Assembly (NCBI RefSeq): GCF_037975245.1 | Contig: NC_092576.1 | Location: forward strand, 36,794,611 to 36,858,610 | Length of the DNA stretch: 64,000 nt | Direction of reading: 5' to 3' | DNA from: Apostichopus japonicus | Lineage: Eukaryota; Echinodermata; Holothuroidea; Aspidochirotida; Stichopodidae | Part shown: piece by piece, positions 809 to 57,535 of the stretch | How the letters are laid out: the number at the start of each line of letters is the position of its first letter | How positions within the stretch are numbered: position 1 is the stretch's first letter | Program-made: the position numbers and the translations under genes | Notes under the pieces: model-generated | Database searches by the model: none | Seen by the model: only the letters and a program-made list of their open reading frames with translations | What the model was told of the DNA's origin: nothing

Positions 809-893
809 CACAGTTAACTCAGACGTACAGGGCGAGCAGTGGAGAAGAAAACTTAATAGAAGGACGAATGCCAGATCTCAAGTCTTTGAACTA
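809..893 (+). CDS. ATG101: ATG101 exon 1 (start-codon exon, ACG in place of ATG)
   Basis: A pyrimidine-rich acceptor ends at 808 and a GTAAGA donor starts at 894. The frame ends in NARSQVFEL and joins exon 2 in phase 0, matching the family N-terminus that normally reads Met-Asn-Cys/Ala-Arg-Ser. The codon before NARS (864-866) is ACG. The frame stays open upstream to the acceptor for 18 more codons without a Met, so an upstream exon outside the window could supply a start. The ATG at 868 is out of frame and meets a stop at the splice junction. Confidence 0.85.
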
Positions 894-2001
894 GTAAGAG
901 AACAATATATTGATTTAATTGGTTGTTATTAAACCTACTTAGGAGTTACAGTACTACTTAGTGATATAAATAACACAATAAACAGTACCATGATACTGTT
1001 GACTGTAAGTCATTTTAAAGCATTGCAGGTATGAGAGTTAACACATTGACATTGGTAAGTTTGAATGTGCGCAGAGTTTTTTAATTGCTTAAAGTAAAAA
1101 AAAATATTCCTTTCTGGATGTACTGTACTGTACATCATCTGCGATTGTTCAGGCCCTCCCTCCCTGGAACTGACTTTTCCCTTTTAATACTCCCTGCCAT
1201 AAGTTACACTGTTCTCAATTAACATGTATGTGAACGTGATGTACAAAAAGCACCTTGAATGTTGCTTGATAGTTCTGTAAGTTTCAGCAAATGTCGATAG
1301 ACCATGAATTTATGTTTTCGGTCACCTTTATTTGCAACCATATTTAATTTGACTAATGTTGTATCGTGTACAGTTTTGCTTTCTTTTATAACAGGTGGGC
1401 CTACTGTATATGAATAACATTTGGTCTAGGCTATGTTACTGTAGGTTAGCTTGTGCTAATTTGAAGTATTGCCATACACGTAACAGGAGGGCCTATATGA
1501 ATAATGCTATGTTAGGTTAGCTTGTGCTTATTTATTGAACTTCCTGGGCTGGTGCTTATTTGTGCAATAAAATAGTTCACTGCGATTGGGTACTGTAGTT
1601 CTTAGCTTTGGAGGGCGCATCGGGACTGGAGGGTCATCACATGTTATTCTTTAGTTTATATTTAAATAGAAACAATACAGTACCTATGGGTGAGGAGGGG
1701 TGATAGGGGAAACGACCTCAATGGGAATGCGGTCATACTATACTGTTATGTTATACTGTTAAGGAGGGAACAGTGGGAGTTCTGTATCATCACATTGAAC
1801 CAATGGTTATACTGTATGTTCCTTTCTGTCACTGTGAGACACCACACTGGTCCAAAACACACATTATTGGTAATTTGTTAGCCCATCCTTCTCACCTTAA
1901 TCAAGCTGATAATTTGTTACAAGTCCAACAATTTATTGTTTTGCATTGAATTCCATTTCATTTTGGATCTTTTTCTCATTCATTTCTTCTCTTTTTTTCA
2001 G
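894..2001 (+). other. ATG101 intron 1
   Basis: A 1.1-kb intron bounded by GTAAGA and a CT-rich acceptor. I see no gene, transposon terminus or tandem array in it. There is one short CTGTACTGTAC run near 1122-1135. Confidence 0.7.
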
Positions 2002-2079
2002 ACTGTTGAGAGCAAGCAGCTAGAGGAGGTTGTCAACAGCATATTTCATACCATACTTTTCCACAGAACCACAGGAAAG
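2002..2079 (+). CDS. ATG101: ATG101 exon 2
   Basis: This exon has 26 codons in phase 0 on both sides. The peptide begins TVESKQLEEVV and ends HTILFHRTTGK, aligning with human VEGRQVEEAM...HTVLLHRSTGK. The acceptor is TTTTTTTCAG and the donor is AAGGTACAGG. The last 18 bp of the exon plus this donor are repeated eight more times in the following intron. Confidence 0.95.
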
Positions 2080-3415
2080 GTACAGGAACACTTTCCAGTT
2101 ATCCATTTCTGTGTGTAACACTCTTACTGTACTGAAGACATGTAGTGAGATGTCTGTACATGTACTCATATTACAGCAATGTTTCCTGTCCCGAGTTACA
2201 CACTTTGTAAATAACACAGAACCACAGGAAAGGTACAGGAACACTTCTAATTTTCCATTTCTGTGTGTAACTTGTTTTTACTGTACTGTAGACATGTACT
2301 GTAGTGAGATGTCTGTACATGTACTCGTATAACAGCAATGTTGCCTCTACCGAGTTACACACTTTGTAAATAACACAGAACCACAGGGAAGGTACAGGAA
2401 CACTTCCAATTATCCATATCTGTGTGTAACTTGTTCCTACTGTACTGTAGACATGTAGTGAGATGTCTGTACATGTACTCATATTACAGCAATGTTGCCT
2501 GTACTGAGTTACACACTTTGTAAATATAACACAAAACCACAGGAAAGGTACAGGAACACTTCCAATTTTCCATTTCTGTGTGTAACTTGTTATTACTGTA
2601 TTGTAGACATGTAGTGAGATGTCTGTACATGTACTCATATTACAACAATGTTTCCTGTCCTGAGTTACACACTTTGTAAATAACACAGAACCACAGGAAA
2701 GGTACATGAACACTTTCAATTTTCCATTTCTGTGTGTAACTTGTTATTACTGTACTGATGTCTGTACATGTACTCATATTACAGCAATGTTTCCTGTCCC
2801 AAGTTACACACTTTGTAAATAACACAGAACCACAGGAAAGGTACAGGAACACTTCTAATTTTCCATTTCTGTGTGTAACTTGTTGTGTACATGTACTCAT
2901 ATTACAGCAATGTTGCCTGTACTGAGTTACACACTTTGTAAATAACACAGAACCACAGGAAAGGTACAGGAACACTTCTAATTTTCCATTTCTGTGTGTA
3001 ACTTGTTTTTACTGTACTGTAGACATGTAGTGAGAATGTGAGATGTCTGTACATGTACTCGTATAACAGCAATGTTGCCTGTACTGAGTTACACACTTTT
3101 TAAATAACACAGAACCACAGGAAAGGTACAGGAACACTTCCATTTTTCCATTTCTGTGTGTAACTTGTTATTACTGTACTGTAGACATGTAGTGAGATGC
3201 CTGTACATGTACTCATATTACAGCAATGTTTCCTGTCCTGAGTTACACACTTTGTAAATAACACAGAACCACAGGAAAGGTACAGGAACACTTCTAATTT
3301 TCCATTTCTGTGTGTAACTTGTTATTACTGTACTGTAGTCATGTAGTGAGATGTCTGTACATGTACTCATGTTACAGCAATGTTTCCTGTCCTGAGTTAC
3401 ACACTTTGTAAATAA
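2062..3415. repeat. About 150-bp tandem array containing nine copies of the exon 2 splice donor
   Basis: Nine units run from the end of exon 2 through intron 2. Each carries CAGAACCACAGGAAAGGTAC or a close variant, which is the last codons of exon 2 plus its GT donor. GT dinucleotides equivalent to the real donor fall at about 2080, 2233, 2392, 2548, 2702, 2841, 2964, 3126 and 3280. Unit length varies from 123 to 162 bp through internal deletions. The repeat must have expanded from a unit that included the exon edge. The open frames inside the array (mostly minus strand, repeating one peptide) are artefacts of periodicity. Confidence 0.94.
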
Positions 3416-3450
3416 TACATCCGTAAATAACCTTTAAATTGTTCTTGCAG

Positions 3451-3534
3451 TTTCACTACAAACAGGAAGGTGCTTTCCTCATCGGTACTGTCGGTGTGGT
3501 CGAGACTGATTGTGACTTTGTTGATTTGACATAT
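3451..3534 (+). CDS. ATG101: ATG101 exon 3
   Basis: This exon has 28 codons in phase 0 on both sides, between GTTCTTGCAG and GTAAGT. The peptide begins [15 protein letters not shown] and ends DCDFVDLTY. Human has FHYKKEG...IGTVG and DCDFIDFTY at the same place. This is one of the most conserved parts of the family. Confidence 0.96.
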
Positions 3535-3899
3535 GTAAGTAAAACATTCATACATGTTTCATTATCTTTGGTATACATGTGTGTAAAAGAGCTATATAGT
3601 CGAACACAAATAGATCCTTCAGATGTCCGTTGCAACCTCCATACAATTGGGTGCAGCATATATCCAGAGGCAGGGGGTGGTGGGGGTGTATTCCATCTCC
3701 ACTTTTCAACACCACAGACTAATTAAAAGTAGATATTGGCACAAGCCTTGTATATATCTGATCTTAAGACCTAATTTTACAGCCTTTATATCCCTCATAA
3801 TTCACAATTGCACAACTAAAAACTTAATTCTGTTTGGCAGATAATCTCCAGATCCCCCTACATATAGATACTGTATATATCGATAGTCCACTTCAACAA

Positions 3900-6620
3900 C
3901 CCGCACCCAGAAAGATTACTGTACTGTATAACTGTAGACGATACAGTAGTCATTACTGCACTGCTCCTTACACAACCAGAGGTATTACTGTACTGTATAA
4001 ATGTAGACACTGTGTACAGTATACAGTCATTGAGTACTGCACTGCTCCTTACACACCCAGAGGTATTACTTTACTGTATGCCCTAGACAATACAGGAGTC
4101 ATTGACTACTGGACTGCCCCTTACACAAGGGCGGCGGAACCGGGGGGGCACAGGGGGCACGTGCCCCCCCATTTTTCCTCAGGTTAAAAATGTGCCCTTT
4201 TTCACATAAAAATTGAGGTGTCTCAAGTTAGCAAGAGGCCAGGGAACCAGAATGAACACTCGGGGAGGGCCATTTCCGGCCATCTGAGGGGTTTGTAAAA
4301 CCACAAATTTTCTTGTTCACTCCGCGCCAACCGATGGTGGTGCTCCGCTCAGATAGTCGTGCATACAACTTTGCAAATCCTGGCTACGCCCCTGACTTTT
4401 AATGAATTACTGTGGGTCAAACTCAAAGCTATTTCGAATGGAATAAATTGTTAAGATATTAACAAGAAATAAACTCTAAATTCGAAGATTCCTACAATAC
4501 ATAAGCAACTAGCATGATTTCACCTCATTTTGTCTCAAAAGAAAACTGGTTCCTTGTTTCCCAATTTGCACATTGGATATTGCAGTGCTAGTATGCATAT
4601 TTTCCTTGAAGGGGGGGGGGGGGGGAGGGGGGTGTTGATGGAGTGATTTGTATACGCAAATAAGATAATACAATAAGAGTTATAAAGGTAATATAAGGCT
4701 GCATCTAATCGAATTTCTGCAAAGTGCCCTTTGATGTTGGTGCCCCCCCCCAGATTAAAAGTGCTTCCGCCGCCCTTGCCCTTACACACCCATAGGTATT
4801 ACTTTACTGTATAACTCTAAACACTACAGTAGTCATTGAGTACCGCACTGCTCCCCTACACACCCAGAGGTATTACTTTACTGTATAACTGTATGCCCTA
4901 GACAATCCAGTATTCATTGAGTACTGCACTGCCCCTTACACACCCAGAGACCTGTATTACTTTACTGTTTAACTGTAAACACTACAGTAGTCATTGAGCA
5001 GTAGTCATTGAGTACTGCACTGCCCCTTACACACCCAGAGACCTGTATTACTTTACTATTTAACTGTATGCCCTAGACAATACAGTAGTCATTGAGTACT
5101 GCACTGCCCTTTACACACCCAGAGATATTACTTTATTGTATAACTGTAGACAATACAGTAGTCATTGAGTACTGCACTGCCCCTTACACACCCAGAGGTA
5201 TTACTGTACTGAATAACTGTATGCCCTAGACAGTACAGTAGTCATTGAGTACTGCACTGCCCCTTACACACCCAGAGGTATACTGTACTGTATAACTGTA
5301 GACACTACTGTAGTCATTGAGTACTGCACTGCCCCTTACACACCCAGAGGTATTACTTTACTGTATAACTGTAGACACTACAGTAGTCATTGAGTACTGC
5401 ACTGCTCCCTCCACACCCAGAGGTATTTCTTTACTGTATAACTGTATTCCCTAGACAATCCAGTATTCATTGAGTACTGCACTGCCCCTTACACACCCAG
5501 AGGTATTACTTTACTGTTTAACTGTAAACACTACAGTAGCTTACTGCACTGCCCCTTACACACCCATAGACCTGTATTACTTAACTGTTTAACTGTATGC
5601 CCTAGACAATATAGTAGTCATTGAGTACTGCACTGCCCTTTACACACCCAGAGATATTACTTTACTGAATAACTGTATGCCCTAGACAATACAGTAGTCA
5701 TTGTGTACTGGACTGCCCCTTACACACCCAGAGGTATTAATTTACTGTATATCTGTATGCCCTAGACAATACAGTAGTCATTGAGTACTGCACTGCCCCT
5801 TACACACCCAGAGGTATTAATTTACTGTATATCTGTAGACAATACAGTAGTCATTGAGTATTGCACTGCTCCTTACACACCCAGAGATATTACTTTACTG
5901 TATATCTGTATGCCCTAGACAATACAGTAGTCACTGAGTACTGCACTGCCCCTTACACACCCAGAGGTATTACTTTACTGTATAACTGTATGCCCTAGAA
6001 AATACAGTAGTCATTGAGAACTGCACTGCTCCCTTACACACCCAAAGGTATTTCTTTACTGTATGCCCTAGACAATACAGTAGTCACTGAGTACTGCACT
6101 GCTCCCTACACACCCAGATGTATTACTTTACTGTATGCCCTAGACAATGCAGTAGTCATTGAGTACTGGACTGCCCCTCACACACCCAGAGGTATTACTT
6201 TACTGTAGACACTACAATAGTCATTAAGTACTGCACTGCTCCTTACACACCCAGATGTATTACTTTACTGTATGCCCTAGACAATGCAGTAGTCATTGAG
6301 TACTGCACTGCCCCTTACACACCCAGAGGTGTTACTGTACTGTATAACTGTAGACAATACAGTAGTCATTGAGTATTGCACTGCTCCTCTACACACCCAG
6401 AGGTATTACTTTACTGTATAGCTGTAGACACTACAGTAGTCATTAAGTACTGCACTGCTCCTTACACACCCAGAGGTATTACTTTACTGTACAGTATGCC
6501 CTAGACAATGCAGTAGTCATTGAGTACTGAACTGCCCCTTACACACCCAGAGGTATTATTTTACTGTTTAACTGTAAACACTACAATATATCATTGAGTA
6601 CTCCACTGCCCCTAATTCCC
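3900..6620. repeat. 75-bp minisatellite in ATG101 intron 3 (interrupted by a hAT MITE)
   Basis: More than 25 variable units carry CATTGAGTACTGCACTGCC, CCTTACACACCCAGAGG and TATTACTTTACTGTATAACT. Higher-order variants differ by inclusion of a TATGCCCTAGACAAT segment. The array is split by a MITE at 4126-4778. Unit length is about 70-95 bp. Short open frames inside are periodicity artefacts. Confidence 0.93.
4126..4778. mobile_element. hAT-type MITE, copy 1 (653 bp)
   Basis: The inverted termini are CAAGGGCGGCGGAA and its complement, flanked by a perfect 8-bp duplication CCCTTACA (4118-4125 and 4779-4786). An 8-bp target site and CA(G)GGGCGG-type ends are hAT features. No transposase is present. 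The target was a unit of the minisatellite. It matches copy 2 (15292-15759) in the opposite orientation, including the CACGTGCCCCC block near the end and an internal hairpin around 4320-4350 (GCGCCAACC...GGTGGTGC). Confidence 0.92.
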
Positions 6621-7031
6621 ACAGGCACATTCTCCTGTTTAATTAAATCTTGGATCCACAGTCAGGCTACAGCTTAACAGCATGCAGTAGTGTTACGACT
6701 TATAGAGTAGTACATTACGAACCAAACATGCAATCAGTGCATTAATATAAACTGTTATCCAAGATGGCAGAATTAGAACCAGAATTGTGGTTTGTCTCTT
6801 CTGGTACTGGTATGTTAGCAAATTTACCGTAAACATACTCGTCAACGTGAATTTTTATAAGATCCTTCTTTTTTAACTTGTCATATCTAGGAACTCTAGT
6901 GTCAAATATGTACTCATAGTCATATTGATTCTGTTAGTACTCATACCCCAAGTCTGATTGAAAACCACCAAAATAACATGTAATTTATTTGACATAAAAT
7001 TCACAAATCCCTCAAATTTCCCCCCTCACAG
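6621..7031 (+). other. Remainder of ATG101 intron 3
   Basis: Unique-looking intronic sequence up to the CCCCCCTCACAG acceptor. No further feature is recognised. Confidence 0.6.
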
Positions 7032-7139
7032 GTCAGATGCAATTCTCCAACTTTAGACAAAAACCTCCGACGAGAAGTCTCAGCATTTAAAGATGTCTTA
7101 CGATCCACAGATGTCAACGCAGGTCTCTAAAGTGGACAG
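7032..7139 (+). CDS. ATG101: ATG101 exon 4 with in-frame TAA
   Basis: This exon has 36 codons in phase 0 on both sides. The peptide starts VRCNSPTLDKNLRREV and continues with AFKDVLRS, aligning with human VRVSSEELDRALRKVV...FKDALRNS. Near the end the frame reads Gly-Leu-TAA-Ser-Gly-Gln before GTGGGT. The TAA is at 7128-7130, where the family has an ordinary residue. Using the upstream GT at 7123 would skip the stop but shift the frame of exon 5, so it does not rescue the gene. Confidence 0.9.
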
Positions 7140-7349: not shown

Positions 7350-7885
7350 AACAGTTAGTAGACTTGCCCCAAGTCTCTCACGTGATTCTCTCTTCCACCT
7401 CTCATCTAATGCCTGTTCCGATCCTTCTCTCAGTGACTCCATAACATTGTACCGCTATAATCAGCCTACTTCTACTGTTCCTTGCAACACCCCCTCAGCT
7501 CACACGTACTTGTTTCAAATGGTTCGTGTGCTTTCTACATGCACACGCACGTAAGTTGACGTAACGTACTGTTACTGAAGCGGTACTGTTCGATCGAGCT
7601 GCCTGTCGTGAGAGACTTGTCTCTTTTGGTTCTGTTGACGTCATCATTTTAAACTTATTTATTGTTTTCGTCCCTCAAATTTCGGTGAAACCAATCAGCT
7701 TCGGTATTGTATGACAGTTGCTGCATATTCATTAATTAAGATAAATATTCACATCTTGCTGTGAACGTCCACCCCACCGCGTCGCGACGCACGATCTCGG
7801 AATACTGGACATAAATGTACATAGGCCTATACAAACGTACACAGAGCAAGTGTTGTAAACTAATAATTATGTCTAATCCAATGCA

Positions 7886-8487
7886 ATGGACGAGGCACTC
7901 ATCTTAAACTCCATACAATTTGCCTCTTCGAAGTTGGGAATACCAAAAGAAAACGTTCACGATGAGCAAAGGGATGCGTTGATTGGTTTCTTAAAGAAAA
8001 GGGACGTTTTCGTCGGATTACCAACAGGGTACGGCAAATCACTAATTTTTCAAGCTGCGCCGATCGCATTAGATTTCATTTACGATGTGAAAAATAACGT
8101 TAGTAGTGGTAACACGAGAGCTGCTAACAGTAATAATAATAGTAATACTAGCAACAGCAGTGCAAGTGGGAATAATTCGGCCAGTTGTAGTACTAGTTGT
8201 AGTAGTAAAGTTACTACTCTGAGGTCCATTATTATAATAATTTCACCTCTTGTATCACTGATGAAAGATCAGGTTACATACCTATGTGATAAAGGACTGA
8301 ACGCTTTTCATCTGGCCGGCCCTTCTTCGGCAGAACAGAAACAAAAACTTGAACTCGGCTATTACAATTACATTTTCACTAGTCCTGAGCAGTTATTCAA
8401 ACAAGGACTGGAACTTCTAAAGAAAACGACATACAAAGAGAGGCTGGTTGGCCTTTTTATAGATGAAAGCCACTGTGTAGCAAAATG
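7886..8487 (+). CDS. RecQ-like superfamily 2 helicase, first exon (transposon-borne)
   Basis: ATG at 7886 opens about 200 codons ending at a GTGAGT donor (8488). RecQ-type motifs appear in order: a motif 0-like HDEQRDAL (25-32), Walker A GLPTGYGKS (44-52), motif Ia IISPLVSLMKDQV, TSPEQL, and Walker B DESHC (193-197) followed by VAKW, comparable with DEAHC...QW in RecQ. A Ser/Asn-rich, low-complexity insertion sits between Walker A and motif Ia (about 75-110). The second RecA-like lobe is absent, so the exon cannot make a working helicase alone. It lies inside an inverted-repeat-bounded element within an ATG101 intron, which fits a captured transposon gene. The start is the first ATG in frame. 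Confidence 0.85.
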
Positions 8488-9976
8488 GTGAGTAGCCTAG
8501 GCCCAGGGCCTAGGCTAGGCCTGTAAGTTGTAAAGACTAGTAGATGATCCTAGCCTAGGCCTATATTATATTTCTCATCAGTAGCAATTGCAAAACATGG
8601 TACCCTGCTACAGACTAAGTCCTTAAACAAAACTCTGTGTTACCTGTTTTCTCGGCACTAGATGCATGGTACAGAGTAGGTTTCACCGTGCTGTGTAAAA
8701 GAGCAGCCCATCCTACCCCGCCTTTTCCCACCCTGACACTCTTTTACCCATCCTGCCCGATTTCTCTAGGTTTCTAAAATCTTCCAGTGCAAGAATTGTG
8801 TAGTAGACTGTCCTATTTCCTAAAACTTAAAAGGCTCTTGAGAATCATGTGACAGTAGTTTTCTCACTCAATTGTACAATTTACGAGGAGCAACTGCTTG
8901 GCTTACCTTGAATGTGTAATATTTATGTCCTAGAATATCATAAAAGGTACTGTACTTGGAAGAGAAATGAGAAAAAATTTGTGACATTTGTGACATAGTT
9001 AGCTATTGCTTCAAAATAAGTTTGGGGCAACTGCTTTTGACCTTAAAAGAAAGCACACTGTGTGTTTGCCTTGTATGATTGCTCATGCTCAATTACAAGG
9101 TTACATGCAGTCATTATGTTAAAAGAATCAAATTTATGTTTGCTGTGTAGGCTTCAAATCATAACAGCACAACATTTTACATGTACACACTTGCCTTATT
9201 GATTATTCTTCACCCTTCCCCCATTGTAATGAAATAAAGGGTGTGTATTCTGTTGGTCAGAGGCCATTTTCAAGCTATGAAGAACATTTTAAAACTCCAA
9301 AGTAGCATTGAAAGTAGTCAGTTTTTGTTTTATCCTACTGCACTATTTAAGCAGTAATTGTTTCTACTCAGTAGCAGGTAGCTGCTGGAGAAAATAATGC
9401 TGTGACACATTATCAACTGCGTTCACAAAAATCATCACCACTTTCAAGGTATGGTTTCAAGTTCATTACATTAAATATTACAAATTTTGGTGGAGGAGTG
9501 AGGGTTGATATGTGACATGAGTCTTGAGTTTGTCCACACCTAAGCAAAAACATTGCAACAGTTTACCATGGTAAAAATACAAATTTACCATGGTAAACCA
9601 TGGTGAATTTTTTGCTTCTAGCTATGAATTGTCTAACCTATATTTACTGGCAATGTACTATGTATTGTATCAGGATATATGTTAAAAGCACAACCCTGTA
9701 GTTTAGTAAAGTCCTGCACTACTAGGCTATGTCTTCATGATGGCAATTAATATACCACAACCAAAAATTACAGACCAGTTGCATGCTAGTGCTAAATTTT
9801 ACCACATGCTTCAAGAATGGCATTGAACAGCAGCTATACTCACTGTAGCAGATAAAATGATGATCACATATTGAAAGTCTCAGGCAAACAAACCTCATGC
9901 TCATTACCATCTTACTTTCGTACAACTGATATGGAGTTAATTTTTATATATCAAGAAAATGTACAAATAAACCCAC
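8488..9976. other. Interior of the Academ-like element without recognisable exons
   Basis: About 1.5 kb between the two facing first exons. It should hold downstream exons of both genes but none is seen. One notable structure is a cluster of TTACCATGGTAA-type palindromes at about 9564-9604. The rest is AT-rich unique sequence. Confidence 0.6.
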
Positions 9977-10558
9977 CGGTGTTGTTTGGTTTCGTTTCTC
10001 GTATGAAGAATTAACAATGGTGCTGTCAGTGTCAGGCACATGGGTGAGACTAGCCCTATCCGTATCAGCAGTATCTGCGTAAGCTAACTGTCGACGTTTC
10101 GATGATGGTTTAATTGCATGGGGAGGTCCTCTACCAGCCCCTGTCATGGGACTATTGACCATTCTTTTCGAAACGATAACATCTTTACTTGATCTTGCTA
10201 ATTCATAAGAAGATTTTAAACTTTCTTCTACCTTCTTCAACTTTTCAACGTTGTCGAGTTTCGTTTTGCATTTATTGCAAATATGTCTAGCAACAGCGAG
10301 TACGTCTTCTTCCGTTGTTTGCAATACGTTAGCAAGTCTCTTCAATAACGTTAGTGGGGAATCTGATGAATTTCTCGGTGAAGGAATTAACGAAAAATAT
10401 TTCTTCGAAAGCAATAGGTCTTGAACACAAATGACGCATTTGCAAAATCTTACATCTTCCTGTCTACCAACTCTCCTGCTGTATAGTTTTACTGGAGTTT
10501 TCGCATCCATTTGCCTCGATACACAACGACTTCGTTTTACCAGTGTACACAGTGCCAC
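9977..10558 (-). CDS. Cys-motif protein, first exon (possible Academ transposase N-terminus)
   Basis: On the minus strand an ATG at 10558 opens about 194 codons to a GTGGGT donor (complement of 9971-9976). A second Met is codon 17. Two cysteine pairs that could bind zinc are visible: CKCVIC at about residues 39-44 and HICNKC at about 92-97, separated by a Leu-rich stretch. The tail is Ser/Thr-rich and basic. No catalytic acidic triad is present in this exon. Its mirror-image placement to the helicase exon inside the same inverted repeats suggests the second gene of the element. Reading it as the transposase N-terminus is inference; I do not recognise the family from this exon alone. Confidence 0.6.
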
Positions 10559-11200
10559 TTCAGGGTCTAGGCTAGGCTATAGGCCTACAGTATGTATTTA
10601 TACACACATTCCCTGACCACATTGTCTGTATTTACTATACTAAGAACAGGTGGAAGATTCATTTATCGCGTGCACTGTACAAATTTCCCCACACAAATAG
10701 CACGCTTATATTAGATGTTAATCATATCAATGCTTGCTAAAAATAATTATTGACGTACAAAATATTAACTTTTGTGTGAAATTTATTTCAAAAGGCATTT
10801 TAAGTTAAATCATTTATAAAATAATAAAGGATCACCTTTAGATAATGAACTGTCTGTTTACATATTGGAAACTTTTCATTGGCTACAGAAAATAGTTGAA
10901 TATTCATATTGGAATACCACCGGCTCAAAATGTGACGTCACCAAGACCAAACGTTACAAGTCTCTCGGGGGCGTATAGTATGAGTGTAGAATAACAGCCC
11001 GCTCGTATCATATACGCTCGCTGTGCGTGTTGGTCGATATGGAACATGAGAAATTGTCGTGCTTGGTGGCGGTGCAGTCGGAGAAGCCTTGAGAGGGTGT
11101 CATTATAAAGAGAGTGGACAGTGGAAGAGGAGGGGAGAATCATATAAATCCTATTAGCTGCAGTGGGAGAGAAAATCGCGAGAGACTTGGGGCAAGTCTA

Positions 11201-21584: not shown

Positions 21585-21668
21585 ATTTCTTGTCAAAACT
21601 CTGGGCCGACCAATGCATCTGTTGGAGCTGCTGTTCGGAAGCTACTGCGAGATACACTGGCACTGTGA
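21585..21668 (+). CDS. ATG101: ATG101 terminal exon 8 with stop
   Basis: This exon has 27 codons plus TGA (21666-21668). The peptide starts ISCQNSGPTNASVG and ends VRKLLRDTLAL, matching human [27 protein letters not shown], including the exact C-terminal residues. The last codons and stop are duplicated immediately downstream in the 3' minisatellite. Confidence 0.95.
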   Translation: MSCQNSGPTNASVGAAVRKLLRDTLAL

Positions 21669-22070
21669 AGCAAGTGACTGATATATAAAAGCTCATTTCC
21701 TGACCAAATGCTTCCCAAGGCCTAGCCAGTGATCAGAAGCTGCTGCGAGATACACTGGCACTGTGAAGCAAGTGACTGACCATTTAAAGGCTCATTTCCG
21801 GACCAAATGCTTCCCAAGGCCTATCCAGTGATCAGAAGCATGGTAATGATGCTTTGTTAAAACAAGTGACTGGTATTTTAAGGCTCATTTAATGCCACAA
21901 TGCTTCCCAAGGCATAGCCAGTGATCAGAAGCATGAGAATGATGCTTTGTTATAAACAAGTGATTGGTTTTAAAAACTTAATTTATGCCATAATGCTTCC
22001 CAAGGCATAGCCAGTGATGAGAAGCATGGGATTGATAATGTTCTGTTTTAACAAGGGACTGGTATGGTAA
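21637..22070. repeat. About 97-bp tandem repeat spanning the ATG101 stop codon and 3' UTR
   Basis: About four and a half units run from the last codons of exon 8. Two units carry CTGCGAGATACACTGGCACT and the stop (21645 and 21742). Later units have diverged in that part but keep AATGCTTCCCAAGGC and AGCCAGTGATCAGAAGC. The real stop is the first. The array lies in what should be the 3' UTR. Confidence 0.9.
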
Positions 22071-40599: not shown

Positions 40600-42591
40600 T
40601 ACATCAATTTTACAACTGATATCTGCATCCCTTAAAGGACAATGTCACACTCAGAAGTTATGAAGAGATTGCCAGCCGATGATAAGATCAAGCAGTTGGA
40701 GAAAGTGAAAAGGGAAGCAATTGATGATGGAGACACTGCTCTACGGAACAGGCTACAGAGGCAAATAAATAAATATGTGTTCAAGAGGAGGAATGAATAC
40801 TTCCAAAAGGTAACAACAGACAAACAGTCTCTCTGGGATCTACACAAATCAATACGGAAACCAGATGACCAGCATAGAAACTTGTTTAATGATGAGCTTG
40901 GCCAAAAATTAAGTCAACACTTTGGACGTTTTATTGATGCTTCGAGCAAAGATATTTCACTTATACTACCAGACCTATCAACTACTGAGCCACCAGTAAT
41001 ACAAGAGAAAGATGTAAAAAGACAATTTGGACTTGTTAAGATAGAAATTGCGTCTGGTTTTGATCAAATTCATTGGTGGGTGTGCAAGTATTGCTCTAAA
41101 GAATTAGCTGGCATATTCACTAATTTAGATAATGTAACTTTAAATGAGAATTCAATTCCGTCCCTATGGAAGCAAGCTAAAACATCACCTGTGCCTAAAA
41201 TCTCTATTTCAACATCTGTAAACGACCAATTGACATGTCCAGCATTGGTTTTAAATGTATGCAAAAATTATTATTTCCATACTTGACGCAGGCCATCGCA
41301 TCACACGGTGATGAAAACCAGTTTGCCTACAAAAAAAAAGGCGTGTCCTGCACAGATGCTATACTCAAGCTCGTACATTGTGTTGTTTCTGGTTTAAATC
41401 AGAGTGACACAACAGACACTAAAGTTTTATTTTTAGATTTTCCAAGTGCTTTTAATACGGTTTTACCAAATCGGTTAATCCAAGGTTTGTGTAGTTTTAT
41501 CGATGGGCCATGGCTTATACATCGGTTGGCTAATTTTTTACAAGGATGGTCCCGACAATCAAGCTACAGAAAGGTTATTCAGAGGAATCAAATATTACAG
41601 TGGGAGTCCCCCAGGGAGGTCCTCTATCTGCGTTACTTTTTACAATATACACAGATGATATACGTTCTTTTCTGGGGTGTAATGTAATTAAGTACGCTGA
41701 TGATACAGCTATATCCCGTAAAATTTCAATTAACTATAAATATATACTATAAATCATGTATTGATAATATGGTCAATTTGTGTGAGCAGAAGAACCTCTT
41801 GCTTAATCCTAAGAAATTTAAAGAAATAATTTTTGAAAACATTAACATTAAACATCAAGGTCTCATTCAGACCAGGGATCAGAAAACTTATGTTCAAGGC
41901 TCCTTTGTTGAGCGGGTATCTCATACTTTGTGCTTAGGAGTTGATATTGACGCCAAGTTAACTTTTACTAAACATATCTAAAATGATGTCTAATGTGTAT
42001 TATGTTGTATCAACGTTGGCATACATTATTCCTTATTTTCATTCTAATGTAAGAGATAAGGCTTTCAACTCATTAATTCTGCCAGTGATTGTGTATGCAG
42101 TTCCTGTCTGGTATCACCTTCTACTTGAAAAGGACAAGAAAAGAATCAGAAGTTTATTGAAATACTGCTCAAATCAATTTAATCTCGACTATGAAAGCCT
42201 GGTTGGTAAAGTAAACACTGCTGTTAAAAATGAATTCATAAGACTAGCTAAGAATATACATAGTTCTAAAGATCACTCACTTCACTCCGAGTTGATCTCT
42301 CTGTGCAATAGAACCAGCAAGTACAATATACGTAATCCTACCATCTTGTCAACTTTTAGAATTATGCTTTTTAAGAACTCATTTATCTACAGAGCAGCCA
42401 TTTATATTCAAATGGGTTCTTAGAATCTCTGTTATAATCCTTTTAATATTTAAAACTTCTAATCCTCCATCTTATTTTTTTCTGTTCATGCTTTCATGTT
42501 TGTTCATTTTTACGTCTTTTATGTTTCATTATTATGTGTCCTATTTATAAATTTTATACTTTATACTGGAATAAAGAAATTGAATTGAATT
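40600..42591 (+). pseudogene. 5'-truncated, frameshifted LINE (reverse transcriptase)
   Basis: Successive frames show a helical pre-RT region (40642-41286), then the RT fingers and motif A FLDFPSAFNTV (about 41430-41462), GVPQGGPLSALLFTIYTDD, KYADDTA with YADD at 41693-41704, and a C-terminal region (41983-42423) with AYIIPYF and ILPVIVYAVPVWY. The endonuclease is absent. At least four frameshifts or stops make it non-functional. The 3' end has AATAAAG (42570) and a short (ATTGA)n tail ending about 42591, a common LINE tail type. It lies in the intron between exons 39151-39286 and 44513-44601. Confidence 0.88.
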
Positions 42592-43455: not shown

Positions 43456-44512
43456 GGGGTCGTTGAGTCCGTCTTACAATAATTGATAATTTCATCATGA
43501 TATAGAAATTAAAGACATTTGCCAAAATATAACAACATCATAGGCTTCATAGCTCTACACATAATCTTAACATGCAGTTCTAAAAATTATACAAAAGGAA
43601 AGTGATACTACTGATTTGTGAGAGAACTGGAATGGTCGGCCATAAAATACCATATCATGTTTCTATGTTGTCTGTAAAAACTGTATTGTTCAGCAGTTCT
43701 GTAGAATATTCCGTAATTTTTAGTCTCGGAAATAAGCAAAGTCTAGCTATATTGTTAAAAAGCAATTATGCATCCCTGATGAAATTTGGTGACATATTAA
43801 TGTATGAACAAGCCTACTGGGACATTGCCATTGTTACATCAAACGTTATGACATTAAGTGAATGTAAGGTATTAGTAGATAAGTTATAATACTGCAGGTG
43901 TATACTACTAACATAAAAATAACACAATTAATAGAAATTGTTGCATATCACTAGTTTTTGCACCAGATTAGTAAATAAACCATTCTTGAATCCTTGCAAA
44001 GTTGACACTATACTATACTGTAAATCATAAAGCAGTAGGATGAATTGATGCTGCCAATAGCAAAGTTCTGTAACTAGTAGTGTGATAATTGTTCTGTGTT
44101 TGCAAAAATTGATGTGAATTGTTGACTATTTAGTAATGGGCAAAATGTGGTATTCAGTAATTTATGTTGCACCCAGCAGTTCTGAATGCCGCTCAGCACC
44201 AATAGTATTTTAACCTTTTCTGCTCGGCACGTTTTTGATGATAATTTAACACATTTTACAATAACCAAAATCTGGGATAATACTTGGCACAGATTAGGAA
44301 AAATAACACCACCTAAGCATACTTCATGTGCACAATTTTTCCAGTAGGGAGGGAGTACCCCACCTAAGAGATCACTCTCCCAGGATGTGGATCACACTAC
44401 CACATAATTTGCCTGGCACTAAAATATTCCAGAGCACATCCTGCTATGTGTACAGTATGCATTCTGATATAGTATTAACTTTGCACATTCCGGTATTATT
44501 TGTCTTTTTCAG
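43456..44512 (+). other. Rest of the intron before the second exon
   Basis: AT-rich sequence without a recognised gene or repeat; it ends in a TTTGTCTTTTTCAG acceptor. Confidence 0.5.
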
Positions 44513-44601
44513 TTGAAGGTGTGTGCCCAATTAAGAAACTCGAGAGGTTGGTATCCAAACTAATCCACCAGAAAAGACAACACCAGTTCCTCAGAGGCTG
44601 A
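44513..44601 (+). CDS. Second coding exon of the unrecognised small gene, with stop
   Basis: Following a strong TTTTTCAG acceptor, the frame set by the 39286 donor reads VEGVCPIKKLERLVSKLI, then HQKRQHQFLRG and TGA (44599-44601), giving a 74-codon protein in all. The C-terminal half is basic (Lys/Arg/His). A GTAATT at 44642 could be a donor for a non-coding 3' exon. Function unknown. The exact phase match over a 5.2-kb intron, plus an open frame on both sides, is the main support. Confidence 0.45.
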
Positions 44602-44659
44602 TGCAGCAATGCACTCCAGCAGCTGTACCCCAGTGGAGACTGGTAATTTTTTGAGGTAC

Positions 44660-47600
44660 ATACTGTAACCATTCCATGTTGCAACTTAGTCTACAATTCA
44701 ACTATGTCTGTAGTCTACTACAGTAGGACTGAATATGACTAACCGGATTTAGAACATTTGACACATTTATTCATAAATTGTATTATGTAATTTTAATGAC
44801 ATAGACATATAGTGCCAAATATGGTGCTAATACAGCCACTAGAGGTCAGTAAATGCGAAGGACCCAACAATGTTTCAACTCCACAGGTTAGTGATAACAG
44901 TAGTATTTTTCCTTATCTCTGAAAAATAAAGACATTTACCAATCTTTTAGAATGTGCTACCTACCTCTCTGAAGCAGTTTGTGTTCAAAAATTGCACATT
45001 TATTCTTTTCTTATGTTTTCTTTTTATGTTTCATGATGATGTGGCATTATTTGTACATACTTGCTCTGCTTAAAGATAGTTGCTCGTCAATGCCTATACT
45101 GCAGTTGTCATATAGTCAGGTTGTTATGTGCATATAGTTTAATATCAGCCAACACATTGACATTTTTGGCAAATTTTGAGTGTGAGCTATATTTCTAGTT
45201 TAACATGTTAGGGGCGGCATCATTTAGGGGTCTACTTTCTCCCAGATTTGAACAATAATTTTTAGTTATTACAATGAGTACAAGTTACAATCTCAGTGAA
45301 TAAACAAACATAACATTTGTGCTGGCTCCAACACAGTTACCTTGGCTATGAGCCTGAATGGAATGTCTCTTTTGCAATTAAAATCAAATGAATCATATCT
45401 TGGAAAATCATTTTAATTCAATCTTCAACAACAACAACAGGTATATCTTTGTAACACTTTTGTCCTCACACAAAGCCATAAATATTTTTTTTTTACCCTT
45501 TTCATTTCACATTACAGATGTACAGTACATCCTTTAGAGGAACAGCACAGCATATTGTTATGGCATGATGGATGTTTTGGAAGCAAATATACCTGTAAGG
45601 GTTGGAACTGGAAGTGTTTGTGTTCGATTGTTTCATTAATACATTAATAAACGTGTGCTTCTCTACTTATGTCAGATGATTGTCATATTTCTTGTTCTCC
45701 AGTGAGAGCTACGGATTTGCATAGTGAACGTTGTTAACATGGATACGGACAATTTTGAAATAGCTGATGTCAAAGCAGTTCCTCAGCTTGTTAAATACCA
45801 TACATCAAGGACACAAGAGTGGACAATGGAAGTAACAAGTATCCATAATGTATATATCACAAGCCTTCAAGACAATTGAACAAACTGTACCATAACGGAC
45901 AACAACAAACATGGTGTCTCAGTAAAATAAAGTCACTAAGCTAGTGCAATGTATCATAATAATGTATCTTTTTAATGATGTCAAACATTGGTTGTTGCAT
46001 TTAGTGCGTTATGTATCTTACTCCTTTCTGTAGTATAAACTACATAATTGATGTCATCAAAGTTACAACTGTGTCATATTAATAAACTAAATGACTGAAT
46101 ATTGGTTTCAATGCATACTTTATTGTACACCATTTGGCTTTCCATGATAACAATATCTGATCTGTTTAATTACTGTAGTTTGTTCAGTCATACCAGTAGT
46201 TCTAATGTGACATTGATCTTGGGTTATTTATTGTTGGCACAGAATAAATTGTCTTTATTTTGTATTATGTGAGATCAATTTAACATAACATATATTGTGA
46301 TGTCATGGAGTGTTGAAGATGTACTCTAACTTGCAGCTAGTAGTGATAACACAGTTTCACTCAGTGCTCTTATGATAACCCCAGTGGCAGATGGAGACAG
46401 TATCAGATGGAGATGTTTGAAACGCAGGGGACATTATAGGGTCTTTTTGAAGTTTTGGCAAAGTTGTGTTTGGATGTAAAGCTGCTATACTTATCATGGA
46501 CATGTCCACAACGGAGGCATGGCGTCTCCTAGCCTTATTTGGGTATATGTTCCTGCATTCCGTATTTGGAACACTACCCTACTTTTGTTTGTATTGCTTA
46601 TTCTAAAGTTAGGTAAGTCAGTACGGTATTGTAACATGTTTTTATTTTTAACACATCGATTGCATCTGTACAGTTCTATACATTGAGTTCAACTACAATA
46701 ACCATGAGCAGGGAAAACTTACCACTATTTCACTTGCATTTGTTTTTATGTTAAAGTAACCATATTCATACTTTAAACAAAAAATTTCTTCCATATTTAA
46801 TAGTGTTTATCCAGAGTAGGTTACAGGATATTTTAAAGGTAAGCTATGTAGTATTGGCCCCAATTTAGCATGCTATAATTGCTAGAAGATTTAAAAAAGA
46901 ACGTTACTAGAGGTCTTTACTTTCCAAATTGTTGCCAATAAGATGCCTGAATGTCTCAGTGAGGATAATTTCCTCGAAGGTGGTAATAAAACCAGTTTCA
47001 AAACCTTGACCAAAGGTAACCATATTTGAAGATCTGGTATATTTTGGGCCAATACAGCATAGCTGGTAGAGAGTTGCCGTGGAAGCCACCATATGTTTGT
47101 AGTAATTCAGTAAAATGAAGTAAAGACAGCTGGAGGAGTCCAGTTTACCCCTGTGCCGAAGGTCATTCATCTTTTTGGGCTTTCTCTCCCTTACCCCTCC
47201 CTCGGATTGGTACTTCCACAGCCTCATTTTGGCAATGTGGTTATACACTCACACACCCCTTACACACAAAAAGGCCTTATCTTAAAGCAGCATTTTTCGT
47301 TTTGTCGCCGTTTTCCACTTTTTGACAAGTTCATCAAGTTTTTTTTTTTCATAAATCAATCACAAAACAGCAAACTAAGATATTAGCCAAGTTTTTTCCC
47401 TGCCAAAAGCGTTAATTGGCGAGTAATTAAGGACATTTGTAGAATGAGAAAAGTGTCCACTGACAAATCCCACATTTTATATTAATTGCATACAGTTCCC
47501 CCAACCCACTAGTTTGAATCCAACCAATCAGAGATGCAGGTTTAGTTATGAGCCGTTGCTAAATATAGATTCAAACGTCGAGTTGGTAACTTGGTACAAC

Positions 47601-56217: not shown

Positions 56218-57535
56218 CAGGTTAACTTTCACGATGTGACTGTTCGCAAGGAACACGGTTCTCTCTCTACAGACTACACACCAAGCCCACAGACACACAC
56301 CAGTATCTCCATTCTTCAAGCTGCCATTTCCGACACTGCAAGTCTGGAAATGCCTACAGTCAAGCTCTTCGTCTTCGTCGCATTTGCTCTAACAATTCGT
56401 TTTTCATTAGCCATACAGATGCTTTGAAAAAAACACTTTTTTACCAGGGGCCATAGTGCCAGAAGGGTGCGTGAAGCCATCCAGAGAGTCCGCTCCCTTG
56501 CCAGATCATCTACTTTGGCAATGAAGGAAAAAATGGGCCGAGATTGTGACAACAAGCTCCCCCGGGTTGTTACTTTCTCCTCAAATCTTCCTCCTCCTCA
56601 GTCAATCACGTCTAACAACCACAACTTTCTCCACACTTCAGATAGACTCAAACGAGCCGTCCCTGAAAAAAACCATCATCGCCTACAGACGACCACGCAA
56701 CCCACGAGACCTCCTTATGCGTGCTGCTGTTCCACCTCTAACTGCTAACCCTACACCCATTCAGCATGGTACTTTCAAATGTGATCGCACTTCGAGATGC
56801 ATCGTCTGCAGCCACCACATTGTTGAATATAATTCCATCACCAGCCACAGCATGCAACTCAAGACTAAGGGTCACATCACCTGCACTACCATGTCATCTA
56901 TCTGATCTCTTGTAGAGTTTGCGGCATCCAGTATGTTGGAGCAACCATAACCACCCGCAAGAAGCGATTCTATGGTCATAGATCCACAGTCGAAACCATG
57001 GAGACAGAGACCCCAGTTGGAGAACAATTTAACCATCAAAACCATACCATGAGCAGCATGTCCCTACAGGGAACTGAATCATTAGGTAGTCGTCCTGAAC
57101 TAGTACGAATCAGCAGAGAGATGTGGATGCAACGCAACGATAATGGCTAAACATTCAGGAAGGACATGTCTAACTTTTCTTCTGTCTCCCACTCCTTCTC
57201 CCATGTCCCTCCCCCATCTACTCATCTCCGCATAGCTTTCTTTCTCTCATTTTTTCTCCAAACCTTTCTGTCTTTGTCCATCTCCAGTTATTCCCTACCA
57301 TGTTACTTTAATCCTCTCTTTGTCCATCCACTGTTTATATAATACCTCTCTACTTCCCCTGTTGCTTTCTTCTCTCCATCCTTTGTCTACTTATAATCCC
57401 CTTTCATACATGTCATTGTGTTCACCTTGCTCATTAGCCTGTCTGTATTTCTATGTGTGTTTTTGTCCCTTCTGTACTGTTATTTGTCATTTAGCCTCTG
57501 AAGAAGGATATAAACGTCAGGCCAACCTACTTTTT
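56218..57535 (+). mobile_element. Penelope-like element, 5'-truncated, inserted in the LINE (11-bp target duplication)
   Basis: The insertion is flanked by a perfect CACAATTAAGA (56207-56217, 57536-57546). In order it encodes the end of the reverse transcriptase, FHDVTV then HQYLHSSSCHFRHCKSGNAY (about 56288-56347), followed by QALRLRRIC. Then comes a Cys-bearing linker and the GIY-YIG endonuclease start, IQYVG...RKKRFYGHRS (about 56922-56990), then LGSRPELVRISRE and a stop. The 3' UTR is C/T-rich, ending in CAGGCCAAC. Several frameshifts make it inactive. The family is the same as the copy at 49.8-50.5 kb. Confidence 0.92.

Follow-up and report, generated by a model that had tools for sequence, protein, structure and literature searches.

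Introduction

ATG101 is the HORMA-domain partner of ATG13 in the ULK1 complex and is usually present as a single copy in animal genomes; duplicated pseudogenes and birth-and-death evolution, for their part, are the known pattern of tandem gene arrays. Excerpts of a study in Drosophila state that ATG101 is required there for autophagy (PMC4034400). Here, we describe a copy of ATG101 within a stretch of 64,000 nucleotides from the sea cucumber Apostichopus japonicus (NC_092576.1, termed here C16, positions 36794611-36858610; "the window" hereafter denotes this whole stretch), in which the initiator codon reads ACG and codon 97 is a stop. This copy is, very probably, a young duplicated (i.e., intron-bearing) pseudogene within a tandem array of ATG101 copies, of which one, termed H, would be able to supply the protein. 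Such a cluster removes an apparent paradox: a gene needed for autophagy looks broken, yet many copies of it exist. The broken copy itself is ordinary, and it is the multi-copy cluster that is unusual and more interesting; among the literature matches listed for ATG101 in combination with duplication, pseudogene or echinoderm, we found no report of an ATG101 array.

Results

In the window copy of ATG101, the start codon is lost and codon 97 is a stop

Re-deriving the exons from the sequence placed ATG101 at positions 864-21668 of the window, in eight exons spread over ~20.8 kb (Table 1) and separated by seven introns, with GT after exons 1-7 and AG before exons 2-8. When joined, the exons form a frame of 666 bases that begins with ACG, contains a single in-frame TAA (7128-7130), and closes with a TGA. 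Both disabling changes had been pointed out in an earlier note on this DNA and were recovered by the re-derivation, as was the start that it gave for the gene (864), whereas the gene extends past the span given there (to 7130), its exons running on to 21668. Each change is private to the window copy: ATG is missing at only this one of the 17 exon-1 loci in the genome, and TAA occupies codon 97 at only this one of the 12 exon-4 loci, the other 11 having CAA. The absence of indels that had been claimed for this gene is exact in comparison to paralogue H, but not in comparison to the solved ATG101 chain 4wzg (which we take to be the human ATG101 chain), from which it departs by one 3-residue length difference. 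This difference sits in exon 4 beside the stop codon and, because the other 11 exon-4 copies of the genome also have the extra residues, it is ancestral rather than a lesion.

The identity of the gene is apparent both in the window copy and in H. Window residues 1-96 match the Pfam ATG101 family (PF07855) at 73.5 bits (cut-off 26.5), and the window exons, as well as exon 5 of H, encode NRWPFPDE where the solved chain has SRWPFSDE, the RWPF stretch presumably representing the WF finger residues. Copy H (C16 36.949-36.961 Mb, 12.5 kb) possesses an ATG, all splice sites, and 221 codons followed by TGA, again in a 666-base frame. Its protein matches PF07855 at 154.2 bits (E 3.2e-45, against the same cut-off) and aligns end to end with 4wzg (residues 1-221 with chain residues 1-218, with one 3-residue gap); because it spans the solved chain at E 1.5e-80, a chance match is excluded. 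H is presumably expressed and sufficient to supply the protein, and the window copy would make none.

The window copy thus combines introns at the same positions as in H, inactivating lesions, and an intact paralogue elsewhere, as is expected of a duplicated pseudogene. A processed (retro-) pseudogene is ruled out by the presence of seven introns, and a unitary pseudogene by the existence of five gene-length copies, among them H, whose sequence is intact. Of the possibilities that had been raised earlier, the one borne out is that of a young null allele or pseudogene accompanied by a second copy, except that there are many more than one other copy.

ATG101 forms an array on contig C16

We searched the complete genome (671.6 Mb in 35 contigs) with single exons and found exon 1 at 17 loci, exon 2 at 15 loci (16 rows, since one copy is split), exons 3 and 4 at 12 loci each, and exons 5 and 7 at 5 loci each, and a protein search of the genome located exons 6 and 8 at at least 5 loci each. 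Every accepted locus lies on C16; a row on C19 in the protein search (E 0.69) was weak and regarded as a chance match. Thirteen of the exon-1 loci lie on the + strand at 36.2-37.2 Mb and the other four on the - strand at 45.2-45.7 Mb, and a further piece, of exon 2, lies at 31.2 Mb. The sequence at C16:36140242-36141558, which precedes the first exon-1 copy, matches the region just 3' of exon 8; no ATG101 exon was detected next to it.

Beyond the window copy (F), the search for a second copy that the earlier note had recommended returned four other gene-length copies (D, E, H and K), of which H is intact by sequence. Copy D (36.414-36.423 Mb, 8.8 kb) has lost the acceptor of exon 2 and carries a 4-base deletion in exon 3, and in copy E (36.660-36.677 Mb), exon 2 is interrupted by an insertion of 7,590 bases that is accompanied by a 5-base duplication. 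This inserted segment (C16:36661105-36668694, 7.6 kb) combines the 5-base target duplication with palindromic-looking ends. In copy K (37.203-37.220 Mb), an insertion alters the context of the exon 1 donor, with its GT retained, and exon 4 has 3 bases deleted, in frame; these lesions are perhaps mild, and K may still be working. The remaining eight copies in the cluster are truncated: A, B, C, G, I, J and two loci that comprise exon 1 only.

Segmental duplication and probable exchange in the history of the array

An interspersed repeat situated 22 kb downstream of the window copy (window 43600-45700) shares 98% identity with one that lies downstream of D, and at its other places (the best 40 of 483 candidates) identity is 79-94%, with no full-length match above 86%. 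The 98% identity between the window and D therefore indicates segmental duplication, the process by which an array of ~1 Mb on C16, with its copies on the same strand, would have grown. This array would subsequently have been reshuffled by deletions, by transposon insertions and, probably, by unequal exchange in satellites.

The truncated copies share much of their history. Homology to D and H ends 423-430 bases into intron 4 in copies A, C and I (exons 1-4), which have several kb in common past this breakpoint, whereas in B, G and J (exons 1-2) the intron 2 satellite is joined to base 77-78 of intron 4 (with about 10-25 bases at the join left unassigned), and the sequence continues past the join into that common to A, C and I. 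The exon-1-only locus at 37.036 Mb joins the A/C/I sequence elsewhere, and the four 45-Mb copies share the A/C/I downstream sequence at 81-84%; the exon-1-only locus at 36.590 Mb showed no match to it. Judged by these junctions, 11 of the 12 truncated exon-1 loci go back to a single truncated ancestor, which was duplicated and underwent further deletions. A fusion gene arising from A, C and I was considered and rejected: read-through into intron 4 adds only 32-38 residues, frameshifted in C, and the next 14 kb of C (+ strand) contain 16 stop-to-stop open reading frames (ORFs) of at least 60 residues, the longest of 115. Uninterrupted identity among these three copies extends over 249 bases at most.

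Trees built from the blocks around exons 1, 2 and 3 disagree with these downstream breakpoints; the tree of the exon 4 block, in contrast, places A, C and I together (the trees omit the 31.2-Mb piece, the exon 3 block of K, and exon 1 of K, whose downstream flank is the insertion). The likeliest account of this discordance is that 5' parts were exchanged within the satellites that precede exon 1 or occupy intron 2. Across the cluster copies, exons 1 and 2 contain only two synonymous differences, both in K, and exon 4 contains many.

The window copy was probably inactivated late

In comparison to the consensus of the copies (from which the split exon 2 of E and the 31.2-Mb exon-2 piece were left out), the window copy has seven synonymous differences and no missense difference in addition to its start loss and stop. 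This synonymous excess has a probability of 0.001-0.003 under neutrality. Had the whole branch decayed neutrally, ~19 nonsynonymous changes would be expected, as opposed to the 2 seen, and the neutral share of the branch has a point estimate of 0.11 and an upper bound of 0.33, all at a transition/transversion ratio of 1.5; the measured ratio of 0.78 comes partly from non-homologous flanks, and tests at 1.5 and 2.0 agree.

The four largest distinct non-satellite blocks shared by the window copy and H differ by 7.6-12.7% mismatches (these blocks consist of introns, flanks and the exons they enclose, i.e., mostly intron and flank; satellite alignments and those shorter than 250 columns were set aside). 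Because the blocks have diverged to this extent, yet the window copy is without missense changes beyond its lesions, the duplication is old and the inactivation late, and the copy was probably working until then. Purifying selection would have held it for most of its separate life, after which it would have lost the start codon and gained the stop at codon 97.

Some observations weigh against this explanation of the window copy. The consensus used for counting differences was built from related copies, and the counts are hence not independent. Under plain neutral decay, the probability that both amino-acid changes would be disabling is ~0.0035, although the window copy was picked for study because of both disabling changes. 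Lastly, H and K have F105L in common, where the solved ATG101 chain has F at 105, and H may, in view of this substitution, not be perfectly normal.

Alternatives to a dead gene

The alternative that fares best, though we consider it unlikely, is that transcripts cross units, with exons 1-2 or 1-4 of truncated copies being spliced to exons 5-8 of gene-length copies further downstream. The array would then act as one distributed gene to which the window unit donates 3' exons instead of being a dead gene, a proposition that we hold to be equally doubtful. It draws on the distribution of lesions: all seven in the gene-length copies (two each in D, the window copy and K, one in E) fall in exons 1-4 and their flanks, whereas exons 5-8 keep their length, frame and splice sites in five of five gene-length copies, with missense changes only at residues 105 (H and K) and 106 (D). 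Given the respective lengths, such a skew has a chance of ~0.004-0.008, in a test made after seeing the pattern. Moreover, the eight truncated cluster copies are without stop, frameshift or start loss across 1,284 coding bases, are intact at 32 of 32 splice sites checked and at all eight exon-1 acceptors, and have accumulated 2 nonsynonymous and 8 synonymous differences from the all-copy consensus. When compared to the cluster consensus, their exons differ at 11 of 1,284 positions (0.86%) and their flanks at 145 of 3,864 (3.75%); in this count, flanks more than 20% different were to be dropped, which applied to none, and the upstream flank of exon 1 was unused. Among the four 45-Mb copies, which lie far from any exons 5-8, two contain nonsense codons and one contains indels.

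Several observations count against it. Since 5' parts seem to have been exchanged between truncated and gene-length copies, the clean 5' exons may have been acquired recently from working genes, and recent 5' replacement is favoured because the trees of exons 1-3 are discordant with the breakpoints. Copies A, C and I have undergone a neutral divergence of 0.7-2.5% since their shared truncation, over which ~6 amino-acid changes would be expected and 2 are seen, which is not decisive, and ~2 synonymous changes would be expected and 7 are seen, which hints at exchange. The 45-Mb copies are an impure control: 18 of their 37 differences are nonsynonymous (19 synonymous), which is below the neutral level (P 0.0004-0.0025), and one of them, termed P, is without a disabling lesion. 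In addition, the window's own exon 4 would need to be bypassed, and there is no whole exon 2 between copy D and the window copy. The pattern of lesions allows splicing between units but does not show it, and it offers a specific test of whether the units of the array are spliced together.

An error at base level in the assembly or consensus, affecting one or both of the sites, or a mixing of copies within repeats, is highly improbable. Assembly is hardest in regions such as this one, which is satellite-rich and multi-copy, but the remainder of the window copy is clean, and three sister copies bear their own, different lesions. Provided that this genome corresponds to the published A. japonicus assembly, it is also HiFi-based: excerpts of that report describe HiFi and Hi-C data yielding 671.6 Mb in 23 chromosomes of 18.21-46.02 Mb and 34 scaffolds (PMC10344927).

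The least probable alternative by our estimate is that the window copy is still translated via ACG, an upstream start or skipping of exon 4: the context of the ACG is acceptable, with A at -3, and the 108 bases of exon 4 are a multiple of three, but two simultaneous rescues would be required, skipping exon 4 would remove 36 residues of the HORMA domain, and the upstream frame is unconserved. The upstream exon with an in-frame ATG that had been envisaged earlier fails on this last point. A splice acceptor lies upstream of codon 1 in 17 of 17 exon-1 copies, and the stretch that separates it from codon 1 contains a 1-base insertion in H and in-frame stops in I and the four 45-Mb copies; because the frame is not kept, this stretch reads as 5' untranslated region (UTR). 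Recoding of the RNA, also suggested at the time, is not called for by any observation and would require changes in opposite directions at the two sites. Neither assembly error nor ACG initiation nor RNA recoding is needed to explain the window copy.

Repeats and neighbourhood of ATG101 in the window

The gene and its surroundings contain several repeats (Table 1). The satellite in intron 2 holds eight further ends of exon 2, each with a splice donor, and likewise in other ATG101 copies. After the stop codon, there are tandem repeats of 93-99 bases (21638-22036), one unit of which repeats the end of the last coding exon.

Table 1. Exons of ATG101, tandem repeats and a transposon in the window (TRF, Tandem Repeats Finder)
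Feature	Start	End	Strand	Remarks
5' UTR portion of exon 1 (putative), behind splice acceptor	809	863	+	Acceptor in 17/17 exon-1 copies; frame unconserved
ATG101 exon 1	864	893	+	First codon ACG; ATG in other 16/17 copies
ATG101 exon 2	2002	2079	+	
154-base tandem repeat	2062	3419	+	TRF; starts inside exon 2, repeats exon 2 end and donor
ATG101 exon 3	3451	3534	+	
Tandem repeat in intron 3, periods about 80 and 153	4999	6613	+	TRF
ATG101 exon 4	7032	7139	+	TAA at 7128-7130 (codon 97); CAA in other 11/12 copies
DNA transposon in intron 4	7359	11200		34-base inverted termini, 9-base target duplication AACAGTTAG
ATG101 exon 5	11753	11867	+	
ATG101 exon 6	12657	12703	+	
ATG101 exon 7	20645	20764	+	
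ATG101 exon 8	21585	21668	+	TGA stop

The transposon in intron 4 contains a RecQ-like helicase ORF (7877-8488, + strand), with E 1.7e-21 but below the cut-off of the whole-protein model, and an ORF on the - strand (9947-10576) that is weakly zf-AD-like, also below cut-off. Intron 4 measures 738-779 bases in the other four gene-length copies and is there too short to hold the transposon, and it is partly because of this element that the window gene is longer than D and H.

We scanned 82 window ORFs of at least 69 residues, taken from 209 stop-to-stop ORFs of at least 62 residues, against Pfam, leaving out satellites, most of the ATG101 stretch and short ORFs. Seven families were recovered at E <=0.01: helicase, reverse transcriptase, GIY-YIG and zf-AD are transposon-like, and there were weak matches to DUF5099, FHA and Tir_receptor_N, with DUF5099 and Tir_receptor_N below their cut-offs. 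Two of these ORFs, 41199-41684 and 56869-57147, resemble reverse transcriptase and GIY-YIG weakly, each falling just below the Pfam cut-off, and are probably retroelement remains. As for a neighbouring gene that was co-amplified with ATG101, the scan revealed no evident cellular gene in the window, though short exons would escape it.

Excerpts of another report place the sex locus of A. japonicus on chromosome 4 of its assembly, and its main text makes no mention of ATG101 or autophagy (PMC9128100). Because the chromosome numbers are not matched to our contigs, nothing follows from this for a link between the array and the sex locus.

Discussion

We read the window copy as a pseudogene that arose by duplication and was silenced late, alongside a paralogue that would be able to take its place. 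A gene model or a knock-down aimed at the wrong copy would therefore mislead work on autophagy in this species.

In comparison to ATG101 of other animals, the window copy stands apart by its missing ATG, by the stop at codon 97, and by the many copies that accompany it. It resembles the duplicated pseudogenes of tandem arrays that evolve by birth and death: as in those, introns are kept, the copies form a same-strand array, one copy is intact, and four of the five gene-length copies bear different lesions. Unlike in such arrays, the truncated copies of the ATG101 cluster are 5' pieces with clean exons, and no gene-length copy bears a lesion outside the first half of the gene. A further parallel is offered by tandem duplications in Drosophila yakuba, which, according to excerpts of the report describing them, yield chimeric and new gene structures (PMC5460883). 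In that species, the excerpts describe expression as assayed by RNA-seq, whereas the ATG101 array is described here from genome sequence; by analogy, its 5' pieces could behave like the chimeric structures of D. yakuba.

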